Shown here in pieces: positions 4,686-41,783 of a stretch of DNA of 46,267 bases. The stretch is taken from NCBI RefSeq assembly GCF_014490485.1, contig NZ_JACTVA010000047.1, positions 1 to 46,267 on the forward strand. Reading direction: 5' to 3'. The position numbers were made by a program, and so were the translations under genes. The notes beneath the pieces are model-generated. The model made no database searches. It was not told the origin of the DNA and was given only the letters and a program-made list of their open reading frames with translations. The stretch comes from Teichococcus aerophilus. Lineage in GTDB: Bacteria > Pseudomonadota > Alphaproteobacteria > Acetobacterales > Acetobacteraceae. Numbering within the stretch: the first letter of the stretch is position 1; every line of letters begins with the position of its first letter.

Positions 4686-4926
4686 GGCCGGGGAAGGAAT
4701 TCCCCGGGCCCCTTCTTTTTTTCTGCGAGTTTGGTGTGGCGCTTCAGGAATAGGAGCTGGCGCTGCTTGATGATTTTAATAATGGGCCACGCGGACTGAA
4801 CCCCAGTCGCCGGAGGTCTAGGACCTCCGGCGCACCCAGCCGTATCTCAGGCGCACCCCCTCTGCAGCCGCGCCCGCAAAACTCGAAAAAAGAAAAGATG
4901 GGGTCCGGGGAATTCCTTCCCCGGCC
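4686..4926. repeat. Interspersed terminator-like repeat, copy 1 (type A, forward)
   Basis: Full-length 241-bp copy. The left end GGCCGGGGAAGGAATTCC continues to a CCGGGGAA/TTCCCCGG hairpin with GGAA loop, then CCCCTTC and seven Ts, then CTGCGAGTTT. The right end is the inverted counterpart, ending CCTTCCCCGGCC. A central hairpin at 4808-4832 has arms CGCCGGAGGTC/GACCTCCGGCG around TAG. The copy lies between convergent rpsO and the cyclodeaminase-like gene, ending 6 bp from the latter's stop codon. The rest of this 336-bp gap holds only the rpsO terminator. Confidence 0.93.
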
Positions 4927-4932
4927 ATCCCG

Positions 4933-5874
4933 TCACCCCGCCCCCTCGCTCTCATAGGCCAGCACAGCCGCCGCGAGGTCTTCCCCCGCCCAGCCGACCG
5001 ACTTGAACAGGGTCACGTCCCCGGCGTTGGTGCGGCCGGGATGCGTGCCGCGGCAGAGGTCGAACAGGTCGGCCTGGATGTGGTTGGCGTCGATGCTGCC
5101 ATCGGCGATGGCTTGCACGACGTCGCCGGCCTCGGCCAGGGCGCCGGGGCGGGTATCGACGAACAGGCGGGCGCGGCGCACCAGGGCGGAGTCGCTTTCG
5201 CGCATGTCGGGCCGGAAGGCGCCGATCAGGTCCACATGCGTGCCGGGGGCGATGCTGGCGCCGGCCAGCAGCGGCGTGGTGGAGAGGGTGGCGGCGGAGA
5301 TGATGTCGGCCCCCGCCGGGTCGGGCGTGGCCACGGCGCGGGCGGGCAGGCCGGCGGCCGCCAGGCTGGCGGCCAGCTTTGCTGCGCTCTCCGCACGGCG
5401 GGACCAGATGCGGATGTCGCGCAGGCCGAAGCGGGCGGCATAGGCCTCGGCCAGGGCGTGGGCCACCTTGCCGCTGCCCAGCAGCAGCAGGGTCTGGCTG
5501 TCCGGCCGCGCCAGGTAGCCGGCGGCCAGCACGCTGGCGGCGGCGGTGCGGCGGTCGGTCAGTGTGCCGCCATCCAGGATGCAGAGCGGCTGGCCGCTTT
5601 CACCGTCCGACAGCAGGTAGACCGAGTGCACCGCCTGCAGGCCGGGCTGCTTCGCGTTGGCGGGATTCACGTGGACGATCTTGACCCCGGTGAAGCGGTG
5701 CGCCTGCCAGGCCGGCATCAGCAGCAGGGAGCCTTCGGCTGCCTCTTTTTGCGGCAAAGGGTGCCGGTGGCGCAGCGGGGCCTCGCAGCCGGTGCGGAAC
5801 ATCTCCCGCAACGCCTCCAGCAGGGCGGGCCAGGGCAGGCGGGCGGTGGTTTCGGTCTTGTCCAGCATCCGCAT
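4933..5874 (-). CDS. Ornithine cyclodeaminase / mu-crystallin family protein
   Basis: Members are NAD(P)-dependent enzymes that deaminate ornithine to proline or reduce cyclic imines such as delta1-pyrroline-2-carboxylate; the exact substrate is not readable here. With the ATG at 5874 the protein has 313 residues, the normal length. It shows the substrate-side motif HRFTGVKIVHVNPANAKQPG, ILDGGTLTDRRTAAAS, and a Rossmann dinucleotide motif LLLLGSGKVAHALAEAY. The C-terminus has GDVTLFKSVGWAGEDLAAA, typical of the family. The frame stays open upstream but those residues (Cys/Pro-rich, encoded by a C-run) look untranslated. It is divergent from the amino-acid ABC operon, suggesting a role in amino-acid catabolism. 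Confidence 0.85.
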   Translation of the reverse strand: MRMLDKTETTARLPWPALLEALREMFRTGCEAPLRHRHPLPQKEAAEGSLLLMPAWQAHRFTGVKIVHVNPANAKQPGLQAVHSVYLLSDGESGQPLCILDGGTLTDRRTAAASVLAAGYLARPDSQTLLLLGSGKVAHALAEAYAARFGLRDIRIWSRRAESAAKLAASLAAAGLPARAVATPDPAGADIISAATLSTTPLLAGASIAPGTHVDLIGAFRPDMRESDSALVRRARLFVDTRPGALAEAGDVVQAIADGSIDANHIQADLFDLCRGTHPGRTNAGDVTLFKSVGWAGEDLAAAVLAYESEGAG

Positions 5875-6132
5875 GAAGGGTGGGCATCTCCGCCGTGGGG
5901 TGGGCCGCATTTTGCTGGGCGGGGGGGGGCAGGGGCAACAGCTGGCAAGAAGTTTGCTTATGGAGTGAAACCATGCTTCTCGCGGAGTGAGACGGCATGG
6001 CACCATTGCGTCTTTCTCATGGCAGCATTACGCCTGGGAAGATCGGCGACGCTCGCCGGTCCGTGCGTCGAATAAATGCCCGTCGTCCCCCTGAGGCGCG
6101 GTCGGGCCGAGTGGATTTGGGAGAGAGTGACG

Positions 6133-7197
6133 ATGAAGCCGACACGGCTTGCTACACTGCGCGCCACCACCATCCGGGCCCTTGGCGCGGTTGCCCTCGT
6201 CACGGCCGCGGCCATGCCCGCCCTGGCGCAGCAGGCGGCGCCGGCGTCCGGCGCCGATACGCTGGGTGCGATTCGCGCCCGCGGCGCGCTGATCTGCGGC
6301 GTGAACACCGGCCTGGCGGGCTTTGCCCAGCCGAACAGCCAGGGTGCCTGGCAGGGCTTCGACGTCGATTATTGCCGCGCCGTCGCGGTGGCTATTTTCA
6401 ATGACCCGACCAAGGTGCGCTACGTGCCGCTGACGGCGCAGAACCGCTTCACGGCGCTGCAGTCCGGCGAAGTGGACATGGCCGCGCGCAACACGACCGT
6501 GACGCTGTCCCGCGACACGTCGCTGGGCTTCGATTTCCCGGCCATCAACTTCTATGACGGCCAGGGCTTCATGGTGAAGGCCAGCCTGGGCGTGAAGTCG
6601 GCCAAGGAGCTGAACGGCGCCACCATCTGCGTCCAGCCCGGCACGACGACCGAGCAGAACCTGACCGACTGGGCCCGCGCCAACAGCATCCAGTTCACCC
6701 CGGTGGTGATCGAGCGCGTCGAGGAAGTCGTCGGCGCCTATGCCGCCGGCCGCTGCGATGCCTACACCACGGACGTGTCCGGCCTGGCCGCCACCCGCTC
6801 TGCCCAGCCGAACCCGGCGGACCACGTGATCCTGCCGGAAGTGATCAGCAAGGAGCCGCTGGGCCCGTTCGTCCGCCAGGGTGACCCGCGCTTCGCCGAC
6901 ATCGTGCGCTGGACCCACAACGCACTGCTGACGGCCGAGGAGCTGAACATCACCACGGCGAACGTGGACCAGGCCGTGGCCGGCGATGCCCGCCCCGAAG
7001 CGCAGCGCCTGCTGGGCAAGAACGGCGGCCTCGGCCAGATGCTGGGCCTGGACAACGCCTGGGCTGCCAACATCGTCAAGAAGATCGGCAACTACGGCGA
7101 GATCTTCGAGCGCAACCTGGCACCGATCGGCATCCAGCGCGGCCCGAACGCCCAGTGGACGAATGGCGGCCTGCAGTTCTCTCCGCCGTTCCGTTGA
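6133..7197 (+). CDS. aapJ: General L-amino-acid ABC transporter, periplasmic binding protein
   Basis: This is the AapJ/BztA-type solute-binding protein of a broad-specificity L-amino-acid importer. The start at 6133 follows a GGAGAG ribosome-binding site; the protein has 354 residues. The N-terminus is a classical Sec signal (KPTRLATLRATTIRAL, hydrophobic core, AMPALA|QQ). The mature part has IRARGALICGVNTGLAGFAQ, GFDVDYCRAVAVAIF and NTTVTLSRDT, characteristic of this subfamily. It is first in an aapJQMP operon, 83 bp ahead of aapQ, and is separated from the divergent cyclodeaminase-like gene by 258 bp that must contain both promoters; I could not place a convincing -35/-10 pair. Confidence 0.95.
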   Translation: MKPTRLATLRATTIRALGAVALVTAAAMPALAQQAAPASGADTLGAIRARGALICGVNTGLAGFAQPNSQGAWQGFDVDYCRAVAVAIFNDPTKVRYVPLTAQNRFTALQSGEVDMAARNTTVTLSRDTSLGFDFPAINFYDGQGFMVKASLGVKSAKELNGATICVQPGTTTEQNLTDWARANSIQFTPVVIERVEEVVGAYAAGRCDAYTTDVSGLAATRSAQPNPADHVILPEVISKEPLGPFVRQGDPRFADIVRWTHNALLTAEELNITTANVDQAVAGDARPEAQRLLGKNGGLGQMLGLDNAWAANIVKKIGNYGEIFERNLAPIGIQRGPNAQWTNGGLQFSPPFR

Positions 7198-7280
7198 TCT
7201 GACTCCGGTGGCCGGGCGGTTGCCCGGCCACCGTCCCCGCCCGCTCGCGGCGGACATTTGCAATGACGAGAGGCTCCCCG

Positions 7281-8483: not shown

Positions 8484-8546
8484 TCATGGCCCGCCTTCAA
8501 ACCCCTGGGCGCCTTCCGCGCACCGCGCCGGTGGAGTGCTGACCCG

Positions 8547-9729: not shown

Positions 9730-10518
<789 letters not shown>

Positions 10519-10612
10519 CCGGCGGGAAGGGGCGGGGCGGGTTCCGCCTTGCCCCTGGCGCTGGCTTGGCCATCGGCTCCTGCCCCGGGGGCGATGTCCG
10601 GAGGTTGGAGAA

Positions 10613-10854
10613 GGCCGGGGAAGGAATTCCCCGGACCCCTTCTTTCTTTCTGCGAGTTTGGTGTGGCGCTGCGGGACTGAGAGCGGGCGCTTCTTGATGA
10701 TTTTATCAATGGGCACGCGGGCTGAATCCGCAGTCGCCGGAGGTCCAGGACCTCCGGCGCACCCAACCGTCTCTTAGACCCGCCCTCTCAACGGCCCACT
10801 CGGCAAAAACTCGGAAAAAGAAAAGAAGGGCCCCGGGGAATTCCTTCCCCGGCC
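10613..10854. repeat. Interspersed terminator-like repeat, copy 2 (type A, forward)
   Basis: Full-length 242-bp copy in the 469-bp gap between co-directional aapP and kup. Both ends carry the GGCCGGGGAAGGAATTCC hairpin; the left T-tract is CTTCTTTCTTTCTGCGAG. The central palindrome at 10735-10759 has 12-bp arms (CGCCGGAGGTCC / GGACCTCCGGCG) around a single A. No other gene or clear signal was found in the gap. Confidence 0.93.
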
Positions 10855-10987
10855 TTAGACCCCACCCGACGGCCGGCCCGGGGGGAGCCGGCCCTTGCAT
10901 GGCAACCCCCCGAACCCCTATGCGTTGCGGCTGCACCAAACCAGCACGGCCGTGTCCTCCATTTCCTCATCTCCTGACGCCCGCCCG

Positions 10988-17264: not shown

Positions 17265-17300
17265 GGTCCACGCCCGGCGGCTCGATTGGGTTGGAGGGAA

Positions 17301-17542
17301 GGCCGGGGAAGGAATTCCCCGGACCCCATCTTTTCTTTTTTCGAGTTGTTGCCGGCGGGGCCGTTGATAGGTCTGGCTTGAGATACGGCTGGGTGCGCCG
17401 GAGGTCCTGAACCTCCGGCGACTGACAGTTCAGCCCGCGTGGCCCATTTTTAAAATCATCAATCGGCGTCCGCTCTCAGTCCTACAGCCTGACGCCAAAC
17501 GCGCAGAAAAAAGATGGGGTCCGGGGAATTCCTTCCCCGGCC
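17301..17542. repeat. Interspersed terminator-like repeat, copy 3 (type A, reverse)
   Basis: Full-length 242-bp copy in the 323-bp convergent gap between rmd and the CreA-like gene, inverted relative to copy 1. The end hairpins are intact and followed inward by CATCTTTTCTTTTTTCGAG on the left and its inverted equivalent on the right. The central hairpin at 17396-17420 has arms CGCCGGAGGT/ACCTCCGGCG; one arm base has changed compared with other copies. Confidence 0.92.
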
Positions 17543-17587
17543 CTTTTCTTTTCTTCCTGCCCCTGACAACGCAACGCATCGCTTCGT

Positions 17588-18942: not shown

Positions 18943-19001
18943 CGGGGGCGTTCCGGAGAGGGTCAGCGTCTTGCCCAGCACTTGTGGCGGGGCGGGGAGA
19001 A

Positions 19002-19221
19002 GGCCGGGGAAGGAATTTCCCGGACCCCATCCTTTTTGTTCGAGTTTGGCGTCTGGCTGGGAGGCAGGGCTCAGATGATTTTGGTGAAGTTGCAACGTGG
19101 CTCCGCTGGAAGCCTTGGACCTGCGGCGCATCCTGGATGACGCCGAGCGCAACCGCCTGCCTCCACACCACGAGCTCGAAAAAAGAAGATGGGGGGCCCG
19201 GGGGAATTCCTTCCCCCGGCC
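19002..19221. repeat. Interspersed terminator-like repeat, copy 4 (type A, degenerate)
   Basis: A 220-bp copy in the 300-bp gap between the M20 peptidase stop and the LysE-type start. The terminal hairpins are conserved (left GGCCGGGGAAGGAATTTCC, right AATTCCTTCCCCCGGCC) with T-rich tracts inside, but the interior is diverged and the central hairpin is reduced to GGACCTGCGGCGCA-like remnants. It ends 21 bp from the peptidase stop, in terminator position for it. Confidence 0.85.
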
Positions 19222-19242
19222 TTGCTTCCCACCCGGCCCGCC

Positions 19243-20637
19243 TCACCCCCGGTGCGGCGCCTTCTCCCCAAGGTCCCAGAACAGGCCTGCCATGATGGCC
19301 AGGCCCTCGCGCATCACCGGTACCAGCACATGCTCGTCCGGTGCGTGCTGGGAACAGGCGGCATAGGAATGCGGCACCCATAGCGTCGGCAGGCCGAGGA
19401 TATCGGCGAAGACGTGGTTGGGCAGGCTACCGCCGATATTGGGCAGGATGGCCGGCGGTGCCCCCAGCGTCTGCGTCACCGATGCGACGGCCCAGCGCAC
19501 CCAGGGCGAATCCGGGTCCAGCCGCGTGGCGGGCGCCGGCTCCCGGTCGCTGTCAACGATCCGCACCATGTCGAAGCCATGCGCGTCCAGATGCGCGCGG
19601 ATGGCGGGGACGATCGCCTTCTCATCCGTGCCGGCGACGTGGCGCAACTGCACCGTGGCCTTGGCGACGGAGGGCACGGCGTTCATTGGCGCCTCCGGGT
19701 CCCCGGCACCCATGGCCAGCACTTCCAGCGTGTTCCAGCCGAACAGGCGCTCGGCCGGGGTCAGGCCCTCGGCGCCCCAGTCGGCATCGATGGCCGGGTC
19801 GGTCTCGCCGCCGCCAACAGTCAGGCCGGCGATGGCGGCGCGGACGCTGTTGGGCATCGGCGGCGGCAACAGGCCTTCCACCTTCAGTCGGCCCTGGCCG
19901 TCCACCATGCTGGCAATGGCATTGGCCATCACCGTGCCGGGGTTGCGGATGACGCCGCCCCAGTTGCCGGAATGGTAGGCACGCTCCCGCGCCTTGTACT
20001 CCAGCCCGACATTGAAGGCGCCGCGCGAGCCAAGGAAGATCGTCGCCCGGTCCGCACTCAGGCGCGGGCCGTCGGAGGCGATCAGCACATCCGCCTTCAG
20101 CTCCGCCGCATGCTGCTGGCAAATGGCGGCAAGGCCGGGGGAGCCGGATTCCTCGCCCATCTCCAGCAGGATCTTGGCGTTGAAGCCCAGCCTGCCGCCG
20201 CGTGTGTGCAGCACCTGGGTCAGCGCCGCCAGGTTGACGCCGTGCTGGCCCTTGTTGTCCGCGGTGCCGCGGCCGTACCAGCGCTCGCCTTCCTGCGTGA
20301 TGGTCCAGGGCGCCAGGCCCTCGCGCCATGCAGCATCCTGCCCATGCACCACGTCCCCATGCCCGTAGATCAGCACGGTCGGCAGCGCCGGGTCCTCGAT
20401 GCGCTGGGCGATCAGGAACGGACCGCGATTGGGCACGCTGTTGGGCACGATCTCGGTGGTGAAGCCGATGGCGTGCAGGGCCGGCTGCATCTCCTCCACC
20501 AGATAGCGGTCCAGCTCACCCGCGCTGGCGGGGTTCTGGCTCTCGGTGCGGAAGCCGACGCGGCGCGACAGCTCCTCCAGGAAGGCCCCGGTGTCGATCA
20601 GGGCGGTCGAGGCCTGGATGGCAGCGTCACGGCTCAT
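19243..20637 (-). CDS. M20 family metallopeptidase
   Basis: Predicted zinc-dependent dipeptidase or amidohydrolase of the M20/ArgE/DapE/CPG2 group, cytoplasmic, 464 residues from the ATG at 20637 (a GTG two codons upstream is possible). Metal and catalytic residues are visible: His93 and Asp95 in YGHGDVVHG, Asp127 in GRGTADNKGQ, the Glu162-Glu163 pair in MGEESGSPG, Asp near IASDGPR, and the C-terminal His in WVPHSYAACSQHAPDEH. The dimerisation domain lies between. Substrate cannot be assigned from the neighbours. Confidence 0.9.
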   Translation of the reverse strand: MSRDAAIQASTALIDTGAFLEELSRRVGFRTESQNPASAGELDRYLVEEMQPALHAIGFTTEIVPNSVPNRGPFLIAQRIEDPALPTVLIYGHGDVVHGQDAAWREGLAPWTITQEGERWYGRGTADNKGQHGVNLAALTQVLHTRGGRLGFNAKILLEMGEESGSPGLAAICQQHAAELKADVLIASDGPRLSADRATIFLGSRGAFNVGLEYKARERAYHSGNWGGVIRNPGTVMANAIASMVDGQGRLKVEGLLPPPMPNSVRAAIAGLTVGGGETDPAIDADWGAEGLTPAERLFGWNTLEVLAMGAGDPEAPMNAVPSVAKATVQLRHVAGTDEKAIVPAIRAHLDAHGFDMVRIVDSDREPAPATRLDPDSPWVRWAVASVTQTLGAPPAILPNIGGSLPNHVFADILGLPTLWVPHSYAACSQHAPDEHVLVPVMREGLAIMAGLFWDLGEKAPHRG

Positions 20638-20750
20638 CTGCACGGTGCTCCGGTTTGAATGCGTGGCTTCGTGTCTAGAAGACGGGCCTTAGTGTGGGAA
20701 GGGCACGGGGGTGGTCCGTGTGGTTCCTGATGGTGCCGCGGGGGCCAGGA

Positions 20751-20802
20751 GGGGCGCTGCCCCTCCCGGGCCCTCCCCGCCGGGGTGACCGGGTCACCCC
20801 GG
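20751..20802 (+). repeat. GC-rich double-hairpin repeat, unit 1 (type D)
   Basis: Two adjacent dyads: GGGGCGCTGCCCC (20751-20763) and an 11-bp-arm palindrome CCGGGGTGACC / GGTCACCCCGG (20780-20802), followed by ACCCCGTCGTGAGTCTTTGG. It lies upstream of the M20 gene and matches the unit at 44048-44095, with paired changes in the stem (CCGGGG/CCCCGG here, CTGGGG/CCCCAG there). It forms an inverted pair with the unit at 21498-21543. Confidence 0.75.
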
Positions 20803-20905
20803 ACCCCGTCGTGAGTCTTTGGTGAGCCCTTGCGTTTGCAGGGTGGCCGTCAGCGGTTGGAATGTCGGGGGAATTTATGAGATTCCGGATCAGTGAGTTA
20901 AGGCC

Positions 20906-21212
20906 GATCGACATTCGACGGGGGAGAGAAGGTCAGGGGAATGAATTCCCCTGAAGCCCCATCTTTTTTCTGTCAGTTGGCGTGGGGCTTCAGGACTGGC
21001 GGGGGCGGTCATGAGCAGGAACGTAAGTCGTCCGGGCTGAACGATCCGCCTCCGGCTGTCACGAACCTTCGGTGTAAATCCGATCTGGCCCATAATGGCC
21101 GGCGCCCCCACATGCACACCCGAAAGACTCGCAGAAAAAAGAAGGATCAAACCCATAGGGTTTGATGGGGAATTCTTTCCCCTGCCTTCGTGCCCGAGGC
21201 TGAATGTCGATC
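20906..21212. repeat. Interspersed terminator-like repeat, copy 5 (type B)
   Basis: Core 20931-21186 with ends GGTCAGGGGAATGAATTCCC and TTCTTTCCCCTGCC plus inward T-tracts. A perfect 11-bp inverted repeat outside the core, GATCGACATTC (20906-20916) and GAATGTCGATC (21202-21212), marks a wider element. Next to the right end hairpin sits a unique hairpin, ATCAAACCC-ATA-GGGTTTGAT (21146-21166), immediately followed on the minus strand by CCTTC and a T-run. The interior shares an alignable segment with copy 11. It lies in the 913-bp gap between the M20 and MFS genes. Confidence 0.85.
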
Positions 21213-21497
21213 TGTCCTAGCGAACCGAGGTGCTGGGGACAGCGCAACAGGCGGGCAGAAAAATCATAAAGACGCCTTCGAGAAGCAAGAGATTTTGAAT
21301 AACAATCTCTGCCACCTCTCAAGCACGCCAACGCCAGATTCGCCAGAGGCTGCTCCAGCTCCGGCGTAAGCATGCAGAACACGCAGCCCAAACTCCACAT
21401 AATCAGTCACGCTGCAGAAACGCCGCAACAGAGCGATTCCAGCCGCCCACGACCGGCGCCAAGCCCATTAAGGGGCGCCGAAAACTGGAAGCGGGGT
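21213..21497. other. AT-richer intergenic stretch, no supported gene
   Basis: About 280 bp of noticeably lower GC than the surroundings (for example AAAAATCATAAAGACG and GATTTTGAATAACAATC). A minus-strand open frame covers part of it but runs into repeat copy 5 and shows no family features, so I do not call a gene. The segment is enclosed by the inverted GC-rich hairpin units at 20751-20802 and 21498-21543. Confidence 0.5.
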
Positions 21498-21543
21498 CCG
21501 GGGTGGACTTTCCACCCCGGCGGGGCCTGGGGCAGAGCCCCAG
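21498..21543 (-). repeat. GC-rich double-hairpin repeat, unit 2 (type C)
   Basis: CCGGGGTGGA-CTT-TCCACCCCGG (21498-21520) and CTGGGG-CAGAG-CCCCAG (21527-21543). On the minus strand it begins 7 bp after the MFS stop codon, so it is the first structure that transcript meets; no T-tract follows, so any terminator role is uncertain. It is nearly identical to the unit at 44486-44540 and inverted relative to 20751-20802. Confidence 0.78.
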
Positions 21544-21550
21544 TCTTCAT

Positions 21551-22804
21551 TCACTCAGCCGGAGCAGCGTTCCAGAGTTCCGGCCGCAGTTCCTCCTGGC
21601 GATCCGGGAAGAACAGCGCGCAGGCCAGCGTCACCGCCGAGAAGCCGGAGAGTACCAGCAGCGTCGCGGCGAGGTTACCCGTCGCCTCATGCAGCAGGCC
21701 GACGATGGGCGCCGCGACGGCGGCGCCGAGGAAGCCGATGAAGAAGCGCAGCGAGTACAGCTTCACCCGCAGGGCGGGGGCGATGTAGCGGGCGGTCATC
21801 GTCTCGTTCACCGTCACCTGCCCGAAGATGGAGGCGGCGAGCGCAGCGGCCAGCGGCAGCACCAGCGGCCCCTGCACGAAGGACAGCGCCAGCATCAGCG
21901 GCAGTTGCGCCATGGCCAGCGGCAGGAAGACGCGGCGCAGCGTCAGCTTGTCGATCATCCGCCCCACGGTGAACTGCGTCAGCCCGCCGCACAGCGTCGC
22001 GGCGAAGGCCAGGGCGCCGATGACGGGCAGTAGGTCCGGCGAGGTCGCCAAGCGTTCCTGCATCAGCTTCGGCAGCAGCAGGGTGAAGGCGTTGAACACC
22101 AGGCCGGAGACGGCGGCGATGGCCAGCAGCACCACCACGGCGCGGCGCACCACGGCGGGCGGGATGGTGGGGAAGGGCTTGGCCGGGCCGCGGCCGGCAT
22201 TCATGTCCACCGGCTTTTCCCGCGCATAGGCCAGGCCGACCAGCACGCAGAGGATGCCGGGTACGATGAAGGCCCAGCGCCAGCCCAGGCTCTGCGCCAG
22301 GAACGCGGTGGCGACGGGGGCGGTGGCGACGCCGAGATTGCCGAACACGCCGTTGAGCCCGACGGCACGGCCCACCTTCTCGCCCGCCGCTTCCACCAGC
22401 ATGGCGGTGCCGATCGGGTGGTAGATGGCGGCGAAGGCGCCCATCGCCGCCAGCGCCGCCGCCAGCCAGAAGGGAGATGCCGTGAAGCCGGCCGCGGCCA
22501 TGAAGAAGCCGGTGCCGAGGAAGAAGACCAGCATCATCCGCTGGCGGCCGAACTTCGCCGCGAACCAGCCCATCGGCAGTGCGCCGACGCCGTAGATGAC
22601 GAACATGGCGGTGCCGAGCGCCATGATCGGCCCGTACTCGCTGCCGAAGAGCTGGTGGTCCTGCTGCAGCATGCCGAGCACGGCGGTGGCCAGGATCAGC
22701 AGGCAGTAGTGGGTGGCGGTGTGCGCGGCGTTGATGAAGGCGATCTGCCGCTTGGCAGCGGGCGAGTGGTCCATGGCAAGGCGATCCTGGCGTTTCGTTG
22801 CCAT
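21551..22804 (-). CDS. MFS transporter
   Basis: Predicted 12-helix major facilitator, 417 residues from the ATG at 22804. Helices include YCLLILATAVLGMLQQ and FWLAAALAAMGAFAAIYHPI, and the loop between helices 2 and 3 contains the MFS motif A-like GWFAAKFGRQRMML. The YHPIGTAMLVE segment recalls fosmidomycin-resistance-type transporters, but substrate is unproven. It is divergent from an AraC-type regulator with only 40 bp between start codons, which suggests that the regulator controls it. Confidence 0.88.
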   Translation of the reverse strand: MATKRQDRLAMDHSPAAKRQIAFINAAHTATHYCLLILATAVLGMLQQDHQLFGSEYGPIMALGTAMFVIYGVGALPMGWFAAKFGRQRMMLVFFLGTGFFMAAAGFTASPFWLAAALAAMGAFAAIYHPIGTAMLVEAAGEKVGRAVGLNGVFGNLGVATAPVATAFLAQSLGWRWAFIVPGILCVLVGLAYAREKPVDMNAGRGPAKPFPTIPPAVVRRAVVVLLAIAAVSGLVFNAFTLLLPKLMQERLATSPDLLPVIGALAFAATLCGGLTQFTVGRMIDKLTLRRVFLPLAMAQLPLMLALSFVQGPLVLPLAAALAASIFGQVTVNETMTARYIAPALRVKLYSLRFFIGFLGAAVAAPIVGLLHEATGNLAATLLVLSGFSAVTLACALFFPDRQEELRPELWNAAPAE

Positions 22805-22844: not shown

Positions 22845-23648
22845 ATGTCGCCAGACCGCCATCCTTCGCTGCCCTCCCTGCCCGTGCAGGCCGAGCTGGT
22901 GAACCGCCCCCTGGCCGCCTTCGCCCAGGACTACCTGGACGGCATGGCCACCGGCGCGCACAGCCACAGCCGCGCCCAACTCCTCTACGCCACCAGCGGC
23001 GTCATGCGCATCCTGGCCGCCGGCGCGTTGCACGTTGTGCCCACCGGCCGTGCCCTGTGGGTGCCGGCGGGGCTGTTGCACGAAGTGACCATGCAGGGCG
23101 CCGTGGCCATGCGCGCGCTGTTCCTGCGTGCGGACGTCACCGGCTCCGGCCCCGCCGGGGTGACGGTGATGGCGGTCTCCCCCTTGTTGCGGGAGCTGGT
23201 GCTGGCGGCCTGCAGCGGCCCGCTGGAATGGGACGAGAGCGGCCGCGGCGGCCACCTGGCGGCGTTGATCCTGGACGAGATCGCCTGCGCGCCCACCCTG
23301 CCGCTGGGCGTGCCGCAGCCGCGTGACCCGCGTCTGGTGCGCCTAGCCCAGGCCATGCGCGCCGACCCCGCCCGGGACCGGACGCTGGAAGACTGGGCGG
23401 AGGAAGTCGGCGCCAGCCCGCGCACCCTGACCCGACGCTTCCGGGAGGAAACCGGGCTGGGCTTCGCCGTATGGCGGCAACAGACGCGCCTGGCCGAGGC
23501 CGCCGCCCTGTTGGCCCAGGGCATGACGCCTGCCCGGGCGGCGGCGGCCGTGGGCTACGCCAGCGCCTCGGCCTTCGGGGCCGCCTGGCGCGCGGCCTTC
23601 GGCGGCACGCCTGCGCGGATGGGGCGGGATGACGGGCGCTTTGCCTGA
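22845..23648 (+). CDS. AraC family transcriptional regulator
   Basis: 267 residues from the ATG at 22845. The N-terminal half is a cupin-like sensor (GAHSHSRAQLLYATSGVMRI, VPTGRALWVPAGLLHEV); the C-terminal half is the AraC DNA-binding domain with two helix-turn-helix motifs (LEDWAEEVGASPRTLTRRFR and GMTPARAAAAVGYASASAFG). The frame is open further upstream, overlapping the divergent MFS gene, but those residues do not fit the family. Likely regulates the adjacent transporter and itself from the 40-bp divergent gap; the effector is unknown. Confidence 0.9.
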   Translation: MSPDRHPSLPSLPVQAELVNRPLAAFAQDYLDGMATGAHSHSRAQLLYATSGVMRILAAGALHVVPTGRALWVPAGLLHEVTMQGAVAMRALFLRADVTGSGPAGVTVMAVSPLLRELVLAACSGPLEWDESGRGGHLAALILDEIACAPTLPLGVPQPRDPRLVRLAQAMRADPARDRTLEDWAEEVGASPRTLTRRFREETGLGFAVWRQQTRLAEAAALLAQGMTPARAAAAVGYASASAFGAAWRAAFGGTPARMGRDDGRFA

Positions 23649-23686
23649 GGGGTGCGGCCGTTCCTTCGGATGATGGATTCGGAGAA

Positions 23687-23906
23687 GGCCGGGGAAGGAA
23701 TTCCCCGGGCCCCATCTTTTTCTGCGAGTTTTCCGGGTGTGGCGATGCGGCGTTGGCCGTTCAGGCCAAGGGCGGGCTGACGCCGGAGGCTGATGGTCAA
23801 GTCTGGTGGCCCGTGAGCTTTCTCACGGCCACACCTGTCGGCCCCGAAGCCCCATGCCAACTGACAGGAAAGAGATTGGGCTTCAGGGGGAATTCTTTCC
23901 CTGACC
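23687..23906. repeat. Interspersed terminator-like repeat, copy 6 (hybrid A/B)
   Basis: A 220-bp copy whose left end is type A (GGCCGGGGAAGGAATTCC, then CCCCATCTTTTTCTGCGAG) and whose right end is type B (GGGCTTCAGGGGGAATTCTT, ending TTTCCCTGACC). The right flank carries GAATGTCAATC, close to the outer box of copy 5. The interior contains GCCGGAGGCTGATGG rather than the type A central hairpin. It begins 38 bp after the AraC stop; the remainder of the 375-bp gap before arfB has no gene. Confidence 0.85.
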
Positions 23907-24023
23907 TTCCCTTCCCACCCTGATTCGAATGTCAATCAGCCGCCGTGCAATACATGGGAATTGCGTGCCTGGCGGCATGATCGGGCGGCGCTTTGGCCGC
24001 CGGCGTGCTATGCGGGGCGCGTC

Positions 24024-24449: not shown

Positions 24450-24478
24450 GGCTGCCGGGCGTTGTGGGATAGGGTGAA

Positions 24479-24714
24479 GGCTGGGGAAGGAATTCCCCAG
24501 GCCCCTTCTTTTTTCTTCGAGTTTGACGAAACGCTGCAGGACTGAGAGCGGGCGCTTCTGATGATTTGAATAATGGCCCAACAGGGCTGAACCGTCAGTC
24601 ACCGGAGGTCCGAGACCTCCGGCGCACCCAGCCGGTTCTCAGACCCGACTCGTCAACAGCCACGCCCGAAAACTCGAAAAAAGAGAAGGGGTCCGGGGAA
24701 TTCTTTCCCCGGCC
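24479..24714. repeat. Interspersed terminator-like repeat, copy 7 (type A, forward)
   Basis: Full-length 236-bp copy filling the 293-bp convergent gap between arfB and the tungstate-binding gene, 29 bp from one stop and 28 bp from the other. The left hairpin has a compensated change (CTGGGGAA / TTCCCCAG instead of CCGGGGAA / TTCCCCGG). The central hairpin CCGGAGGTC-CGA-GACCTCCGG spans 24602-24622. Confidence 0.93.
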
Positions 24715-24742
24715 TTCTTTTCCATGATCCAGAGTTCCGACC

Positions 24743-28760: not shown

Positions 28761-29557
28761 TCGATCCGGATGCCGGCTTCGGCGAACTCCGGGCCGGCAA
28801 TCTGGGGGTTCGCATCGCCATCTCCGCCGAGGAGATCGATGCGGCGCAGGCGCTGCGTTACCGGATCTTCTACGGTGAGATGGGCGCGCATGCGGATGAC
28901 GTCACCGCGGCCTCGCTCCGCGACAGCGACGCGTTCGACCCGGTCGCCGACCACCTGCTGGTGCTGGACCACAATCTGGGCGAAGGCGCTTCCGCCGTCG
29001 TCGGCACCTACCGGCTGATCCGCCGCCAGGCCGCCGCCAAGGTCGGCGGCTTCTATTCCGCCAGCGAGTACGACGTCTCGCCCCTCGTCTCCCGCCCCGG
29101 GCCGGTGCTGGAACTCGGGCGCTCCTGCGTCGATTCGCAGTATCGCGGCCGGCCGACCATGCAGCTTCTGTGGGGCGGCATCGCCGCCTACGTCGCCAAG
29201 CACAACATCGAGGTCATGTTCGGCTGCGCCAGCCTGCCCGGCGTGGACCCGGATGCGCTGGCCGTGCCGCTGACCTACCTCTACGCCGACCACCTGGCCC
29301 CGGCAGAGCTGCGCCCGCGCGCGGTGCCGGAGCGCTTCGTGGACATGAACCGGATGGACCCGGCGCTGATCGACCGCCGCGCCGCCCTGGCCGACCTGCC
29401 ACCGCTGATCAAAGGCTACCTCCGCCTCGGCGGCTTCGTCGGCGATGGTGCGGTGATCGACCCGCAATTCAACACCACCGATGTCTGCGTGGTGGTGATG
29501 ACGGACCGCGTGACGGACAAGTACTTCCGGCATTTCGAGCGCCAGAAAGCGGCCTGA
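28757..29557 (+). CDS. OlsB-like N-acyltransferase (ornithine-lipid synthesis)
   Basis: GNAT-fold acyltransferase of the OlsB/hemolysin-like group; OlsB transfers a 3-hydroxyacyl chain from ACP to ornithine, the first step of ornithine-lipid synthesis. The 266-residue product has ALRYRIFYGEMGAHADDVTA, VVGTYRLIRRQAA, LELGRSCVDSQYRGRPTMQL and a C-terminal KGYLRLGGFVGDGAVIDPQF, all typical. It overlaps fur by 4 bp, suggesting co-expression. An OlsA-like gene follows, but with repeat copy 8 between them. Confidence 0.85.
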   Translation: MIDPDAGFGELRAGNLGVRIAISAEEIDAAQALRYRIFYGEMGAHADDVTAASLRDSDAFDPVADHLLVLDHNLGEGASAVVGTYRLIRRQAAAKVGGFYSASEYDVSPLVSRPGPVLELGRSCVDSQYRGRPTMQLLWGGIAAYVAKHNIEVMFGCASLPGVDPDALAVPLTYLYADHLAPAELRPRAVPERFVDMNRMDPALIDRRAALADLPPLIKGYLRLGGFVGDGAVIDPQFNTTDVCVVVMTDRVTDKYFRHFERQKAA

Positions 29558-29590
29558 GGGGCCATCCGCCGGGCGGGGGACAGGAAGGAA

Positions 29591-29831
29591 GGCCGGGGAA
29601 GGAATTGCCCGAGCCCTTCTTTTTTTCTGCGAGTTTGGGATGGCGCTGCAGGACTGAGAGCGGACGCTTCGAGATGATTTTAGTCATGGGCCACCAGGGC
29701 TGAACCCTTAGTCGCCGGAGGTCCCAGACCTCCGGCGCATCCAGCTGTCCCTCAGGCCCGCCCTCTCAACGGCCCGCCCGGCAAAACTCGAAAAAAGAAA
29801 AGAAGGGGCCCGGGGAATTCTTTCCCCGGCC
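29591..29831. repeat. Interspersed terminator-like repeat, copy 8 (type A, forward)
   Basis: Full-length 241-bp copy in the 388-bp gap between the OlsB-like and OlsA-like genes, 33 bp after the upstream stop. The left hairpin has lost one pair (AATTGCCCGAG in place of AATTCCCCGGG). The central hairpin at 29713-29737 has loop CCA. After it the gap holds only a short tandem duplication (29861-29892). Confidence 0.92.
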
Positions 29832-29860
29832 TTCCCCCCGGCATCCGGAACGCCAGCACT

Positions 29861-34084: not shown

Positions 34085-34977
34085 GCGGTACCGAACCCCG
34101 GGATGGCCTGCTGTGGCGGCTGCAAGGCCTGCTGCGCAAGAAGAGCGCGGACAGCGTGCGCGGCCAGATGGAAGCGCTGGTCGAAGGCCGCGAGTATCAT
34201 GGCGGCGACAACGACGCGCTCACTTCCCCGGAGCTGGACGCGCAGGAACGCGCGCTGTTGACCAACGTGCTGAAGCTGCGCGGCAAGACCGCCGCCGATG
34301 TCATGGTGCCCCGCGCCGACATCGTGGCGATGCCGGAGGACCTGACCCTGGAACAGGCTATCCGCCTGATCCAGCGCGAGGGCCACAGCCGCTTCCCCGT
34401 ATACCGGGAGCAGTTGGACGAAGTGGTCGGTATGGTCCACATCAAGGACGTCTTCGCGAGTGTGGGCCGGGAGGCGCCATTCAGCATGGCGGCCGTGCTT
34501 AGGCGCCCGCTCTTCGTCGTGCCCTCCATCCCGGTGCTGGACCTGCTGCTGCAGATGCGGCAGGCCCGCATGCACCTGGCGCTGGTGGTGGACGAATACG
34601 GCGGCATCGACGGCCTCGTCACCATCGAGGACCTGGTCGAGACCATCGTCGGCGACATCAGCGACGAGCATGACGAAGACCGCCCGCCGCAGATCGTCGA
34701 GCGGCCGGACGGGCTGATCGACCTGGATGCTCGGACACCGATCGAACTCTTCGAAACCCGCCTCGGCACCGTGCTGACGGAGGATGAGCGGGACCAGGAT
34801 ATCGACACCGTCGGTGGCCTGGTCTTCACCCTGGCCGGCCGCGTGCCTGCCAAGGGCGAACTGGTCTCCCACTCCTCCGGCCTGGAATTCCGCGTGCTGG
34901 ACGCCGACCCGCGCCGGATTCGCCGGCTGCGCGTGCGACGGCCGGGGATCGCGGTGGCCAAGGCGGCGGCGGAGTAG
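34081..34977 (+). CDS. corC: CBS-domain hemolysin-type protein (CorC/TlyC family)
   Basis: Cytoplasmic protein with paired CBS domains and a C-terminal CorC_HlyC domain, 298 residues; family members are linked to Mg2+/Co2+ efflux. CBS 1 starts at TAADVMVPRADIVAMPEDLT and CBS 2 at RRPLFVVPSIPVLDLLLQMR; VVDEYGGIDGLVTIEDLVET is the hallmark linker. CorC_HlyC ends with DIDTVGGLVFTLAGRVPAKG. No membrane domain, so it is the short TlyC type. A repeat copy begins 35 bp after the stop. Confidence 0.92.
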   Translation: MSGTEPRDGLLWRLQGLLRKKSADSVRGQMEALVEGREYHGGDNDALTSPELDAQERALLTNVLKLRGKTAADVMVPRADIVAMPEDLTLEQAIRLIQREGHSRFPVYREQLDEVVGMVHIKDVFASVGREAPFSMAAVLRRPLFVVPSIPVLDLLLQMRQARMHLALVVDEYGGIDGLVTIEDLVETIVGDISDEHDEDRPPQIVERPDGLIDLDARTPIELFETRLGTVLTEDERDQDIDTVGGLVFTLAGRVPAKGELVSHSSGLEFRVLDADPRRIRRLRVRRPGIAVAKAAAE

Positions 34978-35012
34978 CGGCGCTGCTGGCGGTGTCGCTG
35001 GTTTGAGGAGAA

Positions 35013-35256
35013 GGCCGGGGAAGGAATTCCCCGGGCCCCTTCTTTTCTTTTTTCGAGTTTTGCCGGTGTGGCTATTGGTGCGTGGGTCTGGTTTGAGACC
35101 CAGCCGGGCGCGCCGGAGGTCTGGGACCTCCGGCGACTGAGGGTTCAGCCCTCACGGCCCATATTGAATATCATCAAACAGCGTCTTGCTTCAGCTCGCG
35201 GTGCGACGCCGAACTCGCAGAAGAAAGAAGGGGTCTGGGGAATTCTTTCCCCAGCC
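35013..35256. repeat. Interspersed terminator-like repeat, copy 9 (type A, reverse)
   Basis: Full-length 244-bp copy in the 373-bp gap between co-directional corC and lnt, inverted relative to copy 1. Right end is CTGGGGAATTCTTTCCCCAG, a compensated change like that in copy 7. Central hairpin CGCCGGAGGTC-TGG-GACCTCCGGCG at 35111-35135. Its position would separate lnt transcription from the miaB-corC operon unless lnt has its own promoter in the 94 bp that follow. Confidence 0.93.
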
Positions 35257-35350
35257 TTAACCTTCCCCAGGCTGCCGGCCTCCCCCCTTGCCCCAACCGG
35301 CTCCCCATCCCATCAAGTCCATCCAACACGCATCTCGGAACCTGCTTCAC

Positions 35351-36943: not shown

Positions 36944-37011
36944 GTGGTTGCATGCGAGGGGCGGGGTACACCGCTCATCCCGCCAGCGCATTGTACGGAA
37001 AGGTAAAGACG

Positions 37012-37473: not shown

Positions 37474-37888
37474 GACGGGCTGCACGGTTTGGGCGGGAGA
37501 TCCATCCCGCCTGGCCGGCGGCGCGTTCCGGGCGAGGCACTCCCTTGATTGAAATCCGGCTTCAGCCATGTGCCCGGGCCGACCTTTTATGCCCAGGCAT
37601 GTTGGCGGCCAATGTGCCGCCAGCCGGCCAGCGCTAACTCGCGCGGACGCAAAATCCCGGCGCACCGGCTGCCGCCAGAGCAACCGGATAATCCAAGAGA
37701 TTGTTTTTAAAAGCCTGCTGGGCTGGTTGCGGCGCCTCTATCCCGCGCCGGCTTGTCAGCGGTTCGGCCCGATGTCCGCGCATCCGGCCTGCGGTGCCTC
37801 CGTGCCGCACGTAAAATTCCACCACGCCTTACCAGCCTCTCCGCCCTCATTCTGCGGCGGCGATACTCGGCTGACCCTTTCCACACCA
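37474..37888. other. Intergenic stretch after the XRE gene
   Basis: About 415 bp with no supported gene. It starts with a 7-bp-arm hairpin GGCGGGA / TCCCGCC (37492-37511) with no T-tract. The remainder shows no strong signal; in many relatives metK begins here. Confidence 0.5.
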
Positions 37889-37931
37889 AGACTCGCAGAA
37901 AAAGATGGGGTCGGGGAATGCCTTCCCTGGC
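37889..37931. repeat. Interspersed terminator-like repeat, copy 12 (right-end fragment)
   Basis: Only the right end is recognisable: AGACTCGCAGAAAAAGATGG followed by GGTCGGGGAATGCCTTCCCTGG. The hairpin arms are weakened by changes and no left partner is visible in the preceding 400 bp. It lies 102 bp before the hemW start. Confidence 0.7.
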
Positions 37932-38033
37932 GCTCCCTTCTCCACACGCTCGCGTCCCCAGCGGCAGGCGAATAGGTGGGGGGCCCGCACGGGCGCTCGA
38001 CTTCCCGCCCATGCATGCGCATATCGCGCCGAG

Positions 38034-39206: not shown

Positions 39207-39222
39207 ACGAGGCGGCCTGGGT

Positions 39223-39375
39223 CGAGGGAATGCTGCCTCCCTCGAGCTCCCCCGACAGGGGTGCGATCCCTGCACCCGCGATTCACTGGGGCGCCGCACG
39301 ACAGGACGGGTTTCCGAAGGCCTCAGCCTTTGGAAAGTTTGAAAGGGGCACCGCCCTTCTTAAGGCCCCGACCCT
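39223..39375. repeat. Cluster of hairpins downstream of hemW
   Basis: At least three dyads in 150 bp: CGAGGGA / TCCCTCG (39223-39244), CAGGG / CCCTG close behind, and CCGAAGGC-CTCA-GCCTTTGG (39314-39333), then GGGGCACCGCCC. The first begins 16 bp after the hemW stop. They resemble, but do not match, the GC-rich hairpin units at 20751 and 44048. No gene is supported in the 373-bp gap up to 39579. Confidence 0.5.
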
Positions 39376-39579
39376 GGGAATATCTCAGCCAAGGTTCTTC
39401 CTGTGCCGGGAGTGAATGCCGATGCCAGCACCGCTGACAGGATGCTGCGAAGTGGCGGTAAGGCCTTGGCTGCGTTGCGTCCTGCCTGGCTTTGCCTGAT
39501 GCCGCGACAATCGGATTGTTACGGCAACCGATGGCCGTGTCGCGTTGTTAACCGGCGCAGACCGTCAGGATCTCCGACA

Positions 39580-39804
39580 ATGCGCAATCTTGCCCTGTTA
39601 GGTTTGGCACTCTGCCTCAGCGTCCCTGTTGTGGCGACTGAAGCGTTCCGGTTCAGCCTGCTGCCGGACGATGATGGCGTCGAGACCGTGCTGGCTCAGC
39701 ACCTGGAGCGCGGCATCGCCTGCGACGGTGCCTCGGCGATGAGCCTGCAGGACGTTGCGCGCCACGTCACCCCGCAAGGCCAGGCGCCCGTCGGCTGTCC
39801 CTGA
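39580..39804 (+). CDS. Small secreted protein of unknown function
   Basis: 74-residue open frame from the ATG at 39580. The first 20 residues form a good Sec signal (RNLALLGLALCLSVPVVA, cleavage near ATEA). The mature part of about 54 residues contains two cysteines (IACDG and the penultimate VGCP) that could pair. I recognise no family. Support is the signal peptide, the codon pattern and its position; the ribosome-binding site is weak. Repeat copy 11 begins 76 bp after its stop, as for other real genes in the window. Confidence 0.55.
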   Translation: MRNLALLGLALCLSVPVVATEAFRFSLLPDDDGVETVLAQHLERGIACDGASAMSLQDVARHVTPQGQAPVGCP

Positions 39805-39880
39805 TGCGTGACGGCTGCCGGGTGGTTCGGCCGGGGGCGTGACCCGGGCGGGCGGCATTCGGTTCAGGGTAGGAGGAAAA

Positions 39881-40224
39881 GGTCAGGGGAAAGAATTCCC
39901 CTGCGTAAACGTATACGTTTACGCCTTTTTTCCCTTAGTGGACGTAGGGCTTCAAAGCCGGCCTGTGCGGCGATGGGAGCAGATGCCTTCACGGACCATG
40001 GCCCATGAGTCTATCTGTGCGCGTGACTCAGGCTTTTCAGCGCTTCCAATTCAAGCCGTCACACGCTGGCAGGATGGTAGGCCGTCCGGGCCGAAGCATC
40101 AGCCTCCGGTGGTCGTGGATTCCTGCGTAACCCCAGCCCGGGCCCGAAACGGCTGACGCCGCCACAGCCACACCCAGAAGACTCACAGAAAAAAGATGGG
40201 TCCGGGGAAATTCCTTCCCCGGCC
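39881..40224. repeat. Interspersed terminator-like repeat, copy 11 (hybrid B/A, long)
   Basis: 344-bp copy with a type B left end (GGTCAGGGGAAAGAATTCCC) and a type A right end (AAATTCCTTCCCCGGCC). Between the left hairpin and its T-run (39926-39931) is the perfect 20-bp palindrome CGTAAACGTATACGTTTACG (39904-39923). Outer boxes GGCATT (39854-39859) and AATGCC (40242-40247) flank it, as in copy 5. It occupies the 487-bp convergent gap between the small secreted protein and the glycosyltransferase. Confidence 0.85.
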
Positions 40225-40291
40225 TTTCTTACCCAAGTCCAAATGCCGGTCTGCCCTGGAAGGCGAGAGCGGGCCGGGCGCTGCCCAGCGT

Positions 40292-41416
40292 TCATCCCTG
40301 GCGCGGCAGGCGTGCCCGAAACTCGCGGCCGCCGGCGATGCTGGACCGCAGCTCCCGCACCGTCTGGCGGCCGACATACAGGGTGTAGATCTCCTCGCTC
40401 TCCGGCAGGCGGTCCAGCAGCAGGCGGAACAGGTCGTCCACATCCTCCCGCCGCAGCAGGCGGTCCGGGTTGAAGTTACGTGCGGCGAACTGCGCCATGT
40501 GGCGGTCCAGATGCTCGCTGCGGAAGGTGGTGAAGCGCTGCTGCTGCTCGGCCAGGATGGCGGCGCTGCGGCCCGGCGCCAGGGGCGGCAGGGTCAGGTC
40601 GGTCCGTTCCACCAGCAGAGTGCGGTGGTAGCCCATGCGCTGGAAATGCGCCTCGCTGAAGGAAGCACCCTGTTCGCCGATGTAGCGGGCGAAGCAGGCA
40701 TCGGTCATCACCCGCACGATGCCATTGGCCGCCGCCGCCAGGGCCTTCAGCGCATCTTGCGACGTGACGTCGCACGCCATGCCGTGCCGCTGCAGGAAGC
40801 GGAAGATTTCCACGTCGTTGCGGCGCGGGTAGTCCATGCTGCGCAGGATCTCGAAATACGGCGCCAGCCAGGCGTCGATGCGCTGCCAGGCCTGTCGCCG
40901 CAGGCCGAAGCCCCAGTGGTGTTCCATGCTGACCAGCTCCAGCGGCCGGTCCAGATCGGGGCGCGAACGGTGCTGGCCGTAGACGGCGAAGTAACCGACC
41001 TCGGGAAGCTGCGCGGTTGCCTCCCGCAGCCGTTCCATCATCAGCAGGTAGGCAGGGCCGAGTTCCAGGTCGTCCTCGAAGAAGTAGCCGAGATCGGTCT
41101 TCATCGTCTCGAACACCAGCGTCTCGCCGCGCCGGATGTTGAAGGCGATGCCGAGATTCTCCTCGCTGCGCAGCACCCGGCCGGTCGGGAAACTCTCGCG
41201 GAACACCTCCACGCTCTCCGCCAGCCGGGCCTCCTCCGCGTAGCGCACGCCGGAATGGCGGGAGACGGCACCATCCTGCACCAGGATGATGCGGCGCTCG
41301 TCCAACTCCACACCCTGCTGCGCCTTCAACGATTGGCAAAGGCGGCGCAGGTAATGCGGACGATCGAAGGAGAAGATGACGATCGGAGTTTCGATCGCGC
41401 GCAGCGTCTCGGCCAT
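40292..41416 (-). CDS. Glycosyltransferase-like protein (GT-A type)
   Basis: 374-residue predicted cytoplasmic glycosyltransferase. The N-terminus PIVIFSFDRPHYLRRLCQSL and QDGAVSR resemble the nucleotide-sugar-binding beta-strand region; the acidic cluster Glu114-Asp115-Asp116 in YFFEDDLELGPAYL is a plausible metal-binding DXD equivalent. GYFAVYGQH and HHWGFGLRRQAWQRID lie near the expected acceptor loop. The last 45 residues (DLFRLLLDRLPESEEIYTLY then VRELRSSIAGGREF) look like a short helical module attached to various glycan enzymes. It is not linked to other glycan genes here. Donor and acceptor are unknown. Confidence 0.75.
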   Translation of the reverse strand: MAETLRAIETPIVIFSFDRPHYLRRLCQSLKAQQGVELDERRIILVQDGAVSRHSGVRYAEEARLAESVEVFRESFPTGRVLRSEENLGIAFNIRRGETLVFETMKTDLGYFFEDDLELGPAYLLMMERLREATAQLPEVGYFAVYGQHRSRPDLDRPLELVSMEHHWGFGLRRQAWQRIDAWLAPYFEILRSMDYPRRNDVEIFRFLQRHGMACDVTSQDALKALAAAANGIVRVMTDACFARYIGEQGASFSEAHFQRMGYHRTLLVERTDLTLPPLAPGRSAAILAEQQQRFTTFRSEHLDRHMAQFAARNFNPDRLLRREDVDDLFRLLLDRLPESEEIYTLYVGRQTVRELRSSIAGGREFRARLPRQG

Positions 41417-41542
41417 GCCTGCGGGGCTCCTCGGCGTGCTGTCACCCGGCTCCGTGCCTAAGGGGTGTCGTTGGCGATGACAAGCGGGTGAGGCGAGGTC
41501 GGGAGGGATCGTTCCGGGGGGGCTTGATGAGAAGGGAAGGAA

Positions 41543-41783
41543 GGCCGGGGAAGGAATTCCCCGGGCCCCTTCTTTTCTTTTTCGAGTTTATGCGGGGTGT
41601 GGCTGTTGATGAGTTGGTCCTGGGACCCGGCTGGGTGCGCCGGAGGTCTAGGACCTCCGGCGACTGAGGGTTCAGCCCGCGTGGCCCATTTTAAATATCA
41701 TCAGAAGCGTCCGCTTTGGTCCTGCAGCGCTTTGCCAAACTCGCAGAAAAGAAGAAGAGGTCCGGGGAATTCTTTCCCCGGCC
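41543..41783. repeat. Interspersed terminator-like repeat, copy 10 (type A, reverse)
   Basis: Full-length 241-bp copy in the 389-bp gap between the rsmI stop (22 bp away) and the glycosyltransferase start on the minus strand. Inverted relative to copy 1. Left T-tract CTTCTTTTCTTTTTCGAG; central hairpin CGCCGGAGGTC-TAG-GACCTCCGGCG at 41638-41662. Nothing else is evident in the gap. Confidence 0.93.

Follow-up and report, generated by a model that had tools for sequence, protein, structure and literature searches.

The DNA analysed here is a 46,267-nt contig of Teichococcus aerophilus (NZ_JACTVA010000047.1), which we call the window. Between its genes lie repeated copies of an element of about 245 bp whose two inverted ends each resemble an intrinsic terminator that points inwards. 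A first-pass annotation, made from the letters of the window alone, had described 12 such sites and proposed that a bidirectional terminator had been dispersed. We confirmed that these are real dispersed repeats. In the part of the source genome that we examined, the repeat seems, on predicted folds, to have supplied most of the recognisable stop signals at gene ends.

The element in the window

The end hairpin is present at all 12 annotated sites. The core pattern GGGGAANNAATTCCCC, allowing up to two mismatches, matches the window 41 times (many sites twice, once per strand), compared with a mean of 0.34 and a maximum of 3 in 100 dinucleotide shuffles. Eleven sites hold complete inward-facing pairs, as described; the one at 37889 is a single right-hand end. 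The copies are as follows, with paired units given without strand.

4684–4928, complete paired unit; convergent, between the S15 gene (4330–4596, + strand) and an ornithine-cyclodeaminase-like gene (4933–5874, − strand)
10611–10856, complete paired unit; tandem, with a stop at 10518, 92 nt before; seven of eight orthologous gaps lack a copy (the eighth, 5.3 kb in relative G006, was not read)
17299–17544, complete paired unit; convergent, with stops 34 and 43 nt away; the orthologous gaps of relatives G001, G002, G006, G007 and G013 lack a copy
19000–19223, complete paired unit; tandem, 19 nt from the stop of the gene at 19243–20637 (− strand); three of three orthologous gaps lack a copy
20906–21212, subfamily B unit: an inner AAGG–CCTT unit (20930–21188) plus an outer inverted repeat GATCGACATTCG; three of three orthologous gaps lack a copy
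23685–23908, complete paired unit; tandem, with a stop at 23648, 36 nt before; no copy in the only orthologous gap found (G006)
24477–24716, complete paired unit; convergent, with the stops of an RF-1-domain gene and a PBP-like gene 27 and 26 nt away
29589–29833, complete paired unit; tandem, with a stop at 29557, 31 nt before
35011–35258, complete paired unit; tandem, with a stop at 34977, 33 nt before
37889–37934, − strand, single right-hand end without a left partner; end-profile score 34 bits
39880–40226, long paired unit of 347 bp; extra palindrome GCGTAAACG-TATA-CGTTTACGC ahead of the left U-tract
41541–41785, complete paired unit; tandem, 20 nt from the stop of the gene at 41806–42396 (− strand)

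The annotated dimensions stood in most respects. Measured from AAGG to CCTT, ten of the 11 units span 224–259 bp, close to the 240 bp given, and the exception is the 347-bp unit at 39880–40226. Terminal inverted repeats had been put at about 45 bp; seven units have 41–48 nt at 76–90% identity and four have 12–35 nt at 89–100%. Paired units total 2,769 bp, which is 6.0% of the window, in line with the share estimated. Distances from stop codon to hairpin, said to be mostly 20–95 bp, are, by our gene calls, 4–92 nt for 14 of the 15 stop-facing ends of paired units and 362 nt for the other. The site annotated at 20906 does hold a unit, but that coordinate is where an additional outer inverted repeat begins (20906–20919 with 21199–21212).

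Copy number and anatomy

The source genome (5.66 Mb in 140 contigs, of which the window is contig 83) contains 679 copies of the end hairpin; a reversed control contains none. Sixteen congeners have between 0 and 106 each. Outside the genus, end hairpins were found in two of the 41 genomes searched (four and one copies). A longer end pattern compared with named genomes matched at least 25 stretches, belonging to Pseudoroseomonas spp., Roseomonas isolates, Acetobacteraceae bacterium AT-5844 and Plastoroseomonas arctica.

Profile and placement work used 1.596 Mb, or 28% of the source genome; these contigs came from the top of match lists, and the sample is therefore not random. An end profile located 467 ends in it. 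When inward ends 60–1000 bp apart were joined, 408 of these formed 204 pairs and 59 stayed unpaired, which extrapolates to about 724 pairs and 3.4% of the DNA of the whole genome.

The pairs have a median length of 244 bp, with 135 of the 204 within 220–260 bp and a full range of 128–755 bp. For a consensus we tried 116 pairs of 232–256 bp, 31 of which could not be oriented by their core. The 85 alignable copies give a consensus of 245 bp, with the outer 30 bases 92–94% conserved, the core 84% conserved, and a palindrome, CGCCGGAGGTCC..GGACCTCCGGCG, at the centre. The core lies either way round (42 and 43 copies). Each end hairpin has the form CCGGGGAA-NGAA-TTCCCCGG and is closed by AAGG/CCTT; in most ends the inward U-tract is conserved along with it. 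On the incoming strand, then, most ends read purine tract, strong hairpin, U-tract. Purines outside the AAGG reach 90% at the first base and fade over 14 bases (121 pairs), and these flanks add about 4 kcal/mol to the fold relative to random genomic flanks. The copies are old: a search for near-identical recent ones, which would show exact junctions, gave a best pair (aligning over at least 180 bp) of 91% identity.

The arms of the hairpin covary. In 120 ends drawn at random from the 466 that each lay in one continuous stretch, with eight hairpin pairs scored, 96.1% of pairs are standard, compared with 90.0% in shuffles. Moreover, 51 cells are changed on both sides, compared with 9.7 in shuffles, most of them at a single pair, the basal one of the core stem. 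The signal from additional pair types is weaker (13 compared with 11.6, a value reached by 77 of 500 shuffles). Matched changes of this kind could also stem from quasi-palindrome correction during replication.

Variants with an inserted second hairpin retain a hairpin ahead of the U-tract. In the window, the subfamily B unit at 20906–21212 has an extra hairpin, ATCAAACCC-TAT-GGGTTTGAT, ahead of the U-tract at its right end, and the long unit at 39880–40226 carries the outer repeat on both sides with three mismatches. Relatives vary further. AT-5844 has the same core and a unit of about 245 bp; in other genomes of Pseudoroseomonas and Roseomonas, pairs of 94–152 bp without a core match are common, alongside some of 183–253 bp, and some of these genomes have single ends that resemble plain gene-end terminators. 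It is the ends, more than the core, that are the constant part. By eye, Pseudoroseomonas deserti and Roseomonas sp. 18066 (stretches L171 and L185) share the position of a single family end that resembles a gene-end terminator.

Predicted terminators

A transcript entering from either side was expected, from the first-pass annotation, to meet a hairpin followed by a U-tract. We scored this with a strict test: the eight bases after a fold had to include at least six T, and the fold itself had to reach −12 kcal/mol or lower and be paired at its end. Indeed, 332 of the 467 ends pass. Controls pass far less often, at 6 of 154 three-prime flanks of element-free convergent genes and 2 of 376 five-prime flanks. 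Because two laxer thresholds raise the five-prime controls to 33 and 52 of 376, we used the strict threshold alone. Of 20 window ends that we folded, five are extreme for their composition (z −3.6 to −4.1).

Among 910 gene ends with room for a terminator, the first strict terminator lies within the element at 205 and elsewhere at 35. For 186 gene ends in stretches of nine congeners, it lies within the element at eight and elsewhere at eight. The rate elsewhere is equal in the two sets (35 of 705 and 8 of 178, p=1.0) and the element's share differs (p=2e-10), which suggests that terminators were gained rather than swapped.

Placement relative to genes

Genes were called with a simple codon-usage caller (1,320 genes), and a copy was counted as inside a gene if half or more of it overlapped; the caller misses some genes, so the contexts carry some error. 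None of the 204 pairs or the 59 unpaired ends is inside a gene. Of the pairs, 95 are convergent, 95 tandem, 11 divergent and 3 at stretch edges, a distribution that differs from that of free intergenic length (p=3e-33). The even spread over genes and promoters that the first-pass annotation had named as contrary to its proposal is absent from the 28% of the genome examined.

With unpaired ends included, the element is present in 109 of 199 gaps between converging genes, 111 of 895 between tandem genes and 13 of 202 between diverging genes. We classed gaps by the free length left after the element is subtracted. With 0–60 nt free, 40 of 61 convergent, 6 of 234 tandem and 0 of 6 divergent gaps are occupied (convergent versus tandem, p=1e-27). 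Within this class, the element fills 13 of 20 convergent gaps and 0 of 147 tandem gaps when 0–25 nt are free, and 27 of 41 and 6 of 87 when 25–60 nt are free. The figures at 100–200 nt are 23 of 52 convergent, 29 of 150 tandem and 3 of 67 divergent; above 400 nt they are 7 of 18, 19 of 70 and 5 of 37. Position follows context too, being uniform in convergent gaps and skewed toward the stop in tandem gaps, where 84 of 95 units lie closer to the stop.

Insertion in proportion to space, followed by purging, does not predict that the smallest convergent gaps should be so highly filled. Such filling needs selection, targeting, or later deletion of spare spacer. Orthologous gaps in G001 include five convergent gaps with a copy and five without, too few to use. 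For tandem gaps compared with their G001 orthologues, the median excess of free spacer is 94 nt in the 21 that hold a copy and 5.5 nt in the 84 that do not.

Spread of the element

Copies are missing from relatives at sites that can be compared. Relatives in which both flanks align offer 24 readable orthologous gaps, which cover six of the 12 window sites, and none of the 24 holds the copy. This count excludes two further gaps (21 kb and 5.3 kb), and at the six other sites no relative had both flanks. The 4684 site corresponds to a unit of a related family, F2 (described below), in G002 and to a single end of the main family in G011. In G006 (L072:2915-3167) and in the window (24477–24716), the same RF-1-domain gene is followed at a distance of about 25 nt by a copy, yet the window copy ranks only 114th among the matches to the G006 copy, so these are different copies. 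Similarly, G007 has a copy after the same gene as the window copy at 19000, but again a different one. By a rough estimate one shared gene end of this kind would arise by chance, and we did not use them.

The first-pass annotation had reported no target duplication, and we found none in 121 pairs and none in 204. Insertion into a palindromic target was considered and found little support: joined flanks fold only 1.8 standard deviations, and pair only 1.2, better than flanks joined to shuffled partners. A Y1 transposase (PF01797) of the repetitive extragenic palindrome (REP)-associated tyrosine transposase (RAYT) type was not found in the source genome, which speaks against mobilisation by a RAYT gene of its own. 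Across 11 congeners, PF01797 gave one weak match of 55 amino acids, and its locus (L052) has no such end. The Y1 domain occurs in 24 of 200 genomes of the bacterial family, and none of 29 Y1 loci from them has these ends.

Long copies are rare. Three of the 204 pairs exceed 480 bp (496, 510 and 755 bp); four frames of the longest were scanned and gave no Pfam family match. No unpaired inward ends lie 1–6 kb apart in the 1.6 Mb, and one inward pair of outer motifs 4 kb apart (contig C72) proved to be two separate units. A phage origin found no support (no phage match), and neither did a plasmid origin (the sole plasmid match is 42 nt, in Pseudoroseomonas cervicalis). No RNA family in Rfam matches the element at the gathering threshold.

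Subfamily B offers a hint about the target. Its outer inverted repeat, CTRGGRCNGATCGACATTCGGC, is a consensus of 34 ends; within three mismatches, this motif occurs on both sides of 16 of 218 pairs and on at least one side of 47. The flank suggests a TA or CTAG target, with no clear duplication. IS630-type elements prefer CTAG. That the main copies are decayed subfamily B was rejected, since other ends carry no residual outer motif.

The related F2 family

The F2 family (GGGGTGGAAAGTCCACCCC) shares with the main family CCCCGGACCCC before the hairpin and GAGTTT after it. It is represented in the window by the following features.

20781–20800, + strand, left-end hairpin GGGGTGAC...GTCACCCC
21478–21524, − strand, right end GGGGTGGACTTTCCACCCC
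44073–44512, unit with both ends (44073–44095 and 44466–44512), listed without strand

The two families differ in their T content and in their number. Over the next 14 nt, F2 ends have 4.9 T and main-family ends 9.5 (34 and 241 ends). Hairpin density in the source genome is 13/Mb for F2, which has not expanded, and 209/Mb for the main family. All but one of the 23 F2 hairpins found lie between genes, 9 of them in convergent and 13 in tandem gaps, with none in divergent gaps. This comparison suggests that the expanded family may have gained its U-tract.

Several further observations concern F2. Two G001 ends, from among stretches L061–L063 and L225–L244, combine the AGAAGG/GAAAGG foot of the main family with an F2 hairpin and are possible intermediates. 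The subfamily B unit at 20906–21212 sits between the inward F2 ends at 20781–20800 and 21478–21524, an arrangement that resembles a nested insertion (window 20720–21560); its left flank ends in TTA and its right flank starts with TAG. The F2 unit at 44073–44512 has a second outer palindrome, GGGGGCGCTGCCCCC, and its interior, by eye, is AT-rich and does not resemble that of the window's other F2 pair.

Interpretation

We consider it probable, at roughly 0.6, that this is a non-autonomous dispersed element of about 245 bp whose two ends are inward-facing intrinsic terminators. The anatomy and distribution fit the dispersed bidirectional terminator of the first-pass annotation; that the ends terminate transcription in vivo, and that termination is why the element spread, are steps we infer from sequence. 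RNA polymerase arriving from either neighbouring gene would transcribe the purine-rich tract, then the hairpin, then the U-rich tract, and would stop inside the element. A single copy could thus insulate two converging genes, or close off one of two tandem units. Copying of the element would be the work of an enzyme that our searches did not find, since there is no target duplication and no Y1 transposase in this genome. Copies may then have persisted at convergent gene ends, where termination in both directions would be useful, and have been lost elsewhere.

A number of results weigh against this reading. If stop-facing ends did the work, they might be expected to be better kept. A weak signal of this sort appeared in tandem copies found through their ends (by profile score the stop-facing end is better in 58 and worse in 37 of 95, p=0.02), which may reflect ascertainment; these copies have no stop-facing advantage in hairpin energy (p=0.18) or T-tract (p=0.33). 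It vanished in copies found through their core, and we rejected it. In those, both ends are present in 106 of 115 copies, the stop-facing end is better kept in 25 of 51 and the start-facing end in 26 (p=0.76), and losses amount to 8 of 163 stop-facing and 1 of 65 start-facing ends (p=0.45). Unpaired tandem ends face starts in 15 cases and stops in 12. Taken together, this argues against strong maintenance copy by copy. Furthermore, 15 of the 20 folded window ends are not extreme for composition (z −0.3 to −1.9). Flank purines do not covary with the U-tract of their own copy (338 ends starting exactly with AAGG), because flanks re-dealt among copies fold equally well. The gene for ribosomal protein S15 is directly followed by an ordinary intrinsic terminator (4621–4652), which lies some 30 nt ahead of the element at 4684 and would make that element redundant on that strand. 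Neither a mobilising enzyme nor an autonomous copy was found, with 28% of the genome read for long copies. Finally, REPs generally also adjoin the 3′ ends of convergent open reading frames (PMC3733652), so such placement is not unique to terminators.

The best-surviving alternative, which we rate as unlikely though a serious rival, is a selfish element resembling a REPIN (a doublet of REPs) or a miniature inverted-repeat transposable element (MITE). Its hairpins would be sites for a lost or unseen transposase, its likeness to terminators would be incidental, and its survival after stops would reflect harm done elsewhere. Equal preservation of the two ends, whichever way they face, suits this explanation, as do the copies in divergent gaps, which are as intact as the rest, and the similar placement of REPs (PMC3733652). 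However, occupancy does not grow with space (13 of 20 convergent gaps at 0–25 nt, 7 of 18 above 400 nt), so that insertion and purging alone are insufficient unless insertion was targeted or spacer was later deleted. The U-tract also speaks against it, being conserved along with the hairpin and setting the expanded family apart from F2, as does the lack of a Y1 transposase in the genome.

It is improbable that the hairpins serve mainly as stabilisers, blocking 3′ exonucleases after Rho-dependent or upstream termination without terminating transcription, as proposed for REPs. Stable hairpins at 3′ ends fit such a role, and strict intrinsic terminators outside the element are scarce (at 35 of 910 gene ends), so Rho may do most of the work; the conserved inward U-tract after most hairpins, however, is not needed for stabilisation. 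Least credible is convergence of ordinary host terminators on one sequence: other species do have single ends with the apparent form of plain gene-end terminators (L171, L185), but 85 copies align over 245 bp with the core included, the core occurs in both orientations (42 and 43), and the orthologous gaps that were read in relatives lack the copies.

A broader account, which we hold tentatively and regard as less likely than not, is that a transposable-type element became a mobile bidirectional terminator by gaining a U-tract in each inverted end. A burst in one Pseudoroseomonas lineage would have given about a fifth of the gene ends examined (205 of 910) a new intrinsic terminator, and most short convergent gaps would have been filled through selection or targeting; a mobile element that earns its keep would thus have remodelled termination across the genome.

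Should the ends terminate, a dispersed element would supply most of the recognisable intrinsic terminators of a bacterial genome, and its symmetry would suit converging genes. Moreover, an old question becomes testable: do interspersed hairpin repeats survive at 3′ ends through being harmless there, or through preventing transcription collisions? The congeners with 0 to about 100 hairpins are natural controls, and within one genome convergent gaps that hold a copy can be set against empty ones of equal size.

Comparison with known systems

A search of open-licence literature in PubMed Central found no described paired, terminator-ended element of this kind. Four known systems come near it.

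Pneumococcal SPRITEs are alike in being interspersed, in combining a hairpin with a U-rich tract near 3′ ends and between convergent genes, and in having been proposed as co-opted terminators. A SPRITE, however, has one 18-bp duplex and one tract of about 48% U, and 30 copies are tabulated, whereas the present element has two facing terminators per 245-bp unit and an extrapolated 720 or so copies, and belongs to an unrelated GC-rich alphaproteobacterium. The uptake-sequence terminators of Neisseria and Pasteurellaceae similarly let one stereotyped repeat form much of a genome's intrinsic terminators (PMC1852404); there, short words pair into one hairpin, and here we see a long two-hairpin unit with a shared core and lineage-specific copies.

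REPINs, the REP doublets associated with RAYTs, are inverted hairpin pairs around a spacer, present in hundreds of copies, mostly extragenic and beside 3′ gene ends (PMC3116915, PMC3733652). Unlike them, this element has an AAGG foot instead of a GTAG or CGTC tag, inward U-tracts, a conserved 245-bp interior in the main subfamily and no Y1 transposase in its genome. MITEs are likewise short, non-coding and intergenic with terminal inverted repeats, and a review considers a terminator function conceivable for them, citing SPRITE (PMC10969869). By contrast with MITEs, no target duplication is present in 204 pairs and no parent insertion sequence was found.

The element would work as a SPRITE or an uptake-sequence terminator would, and is built like a REPIN, while lacking the REPIN tag, the REPIN transposase and the target duplication of a MITE. 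Its scale, its symmetry and its occupancy of convergent gene ends stand out from these precedents.

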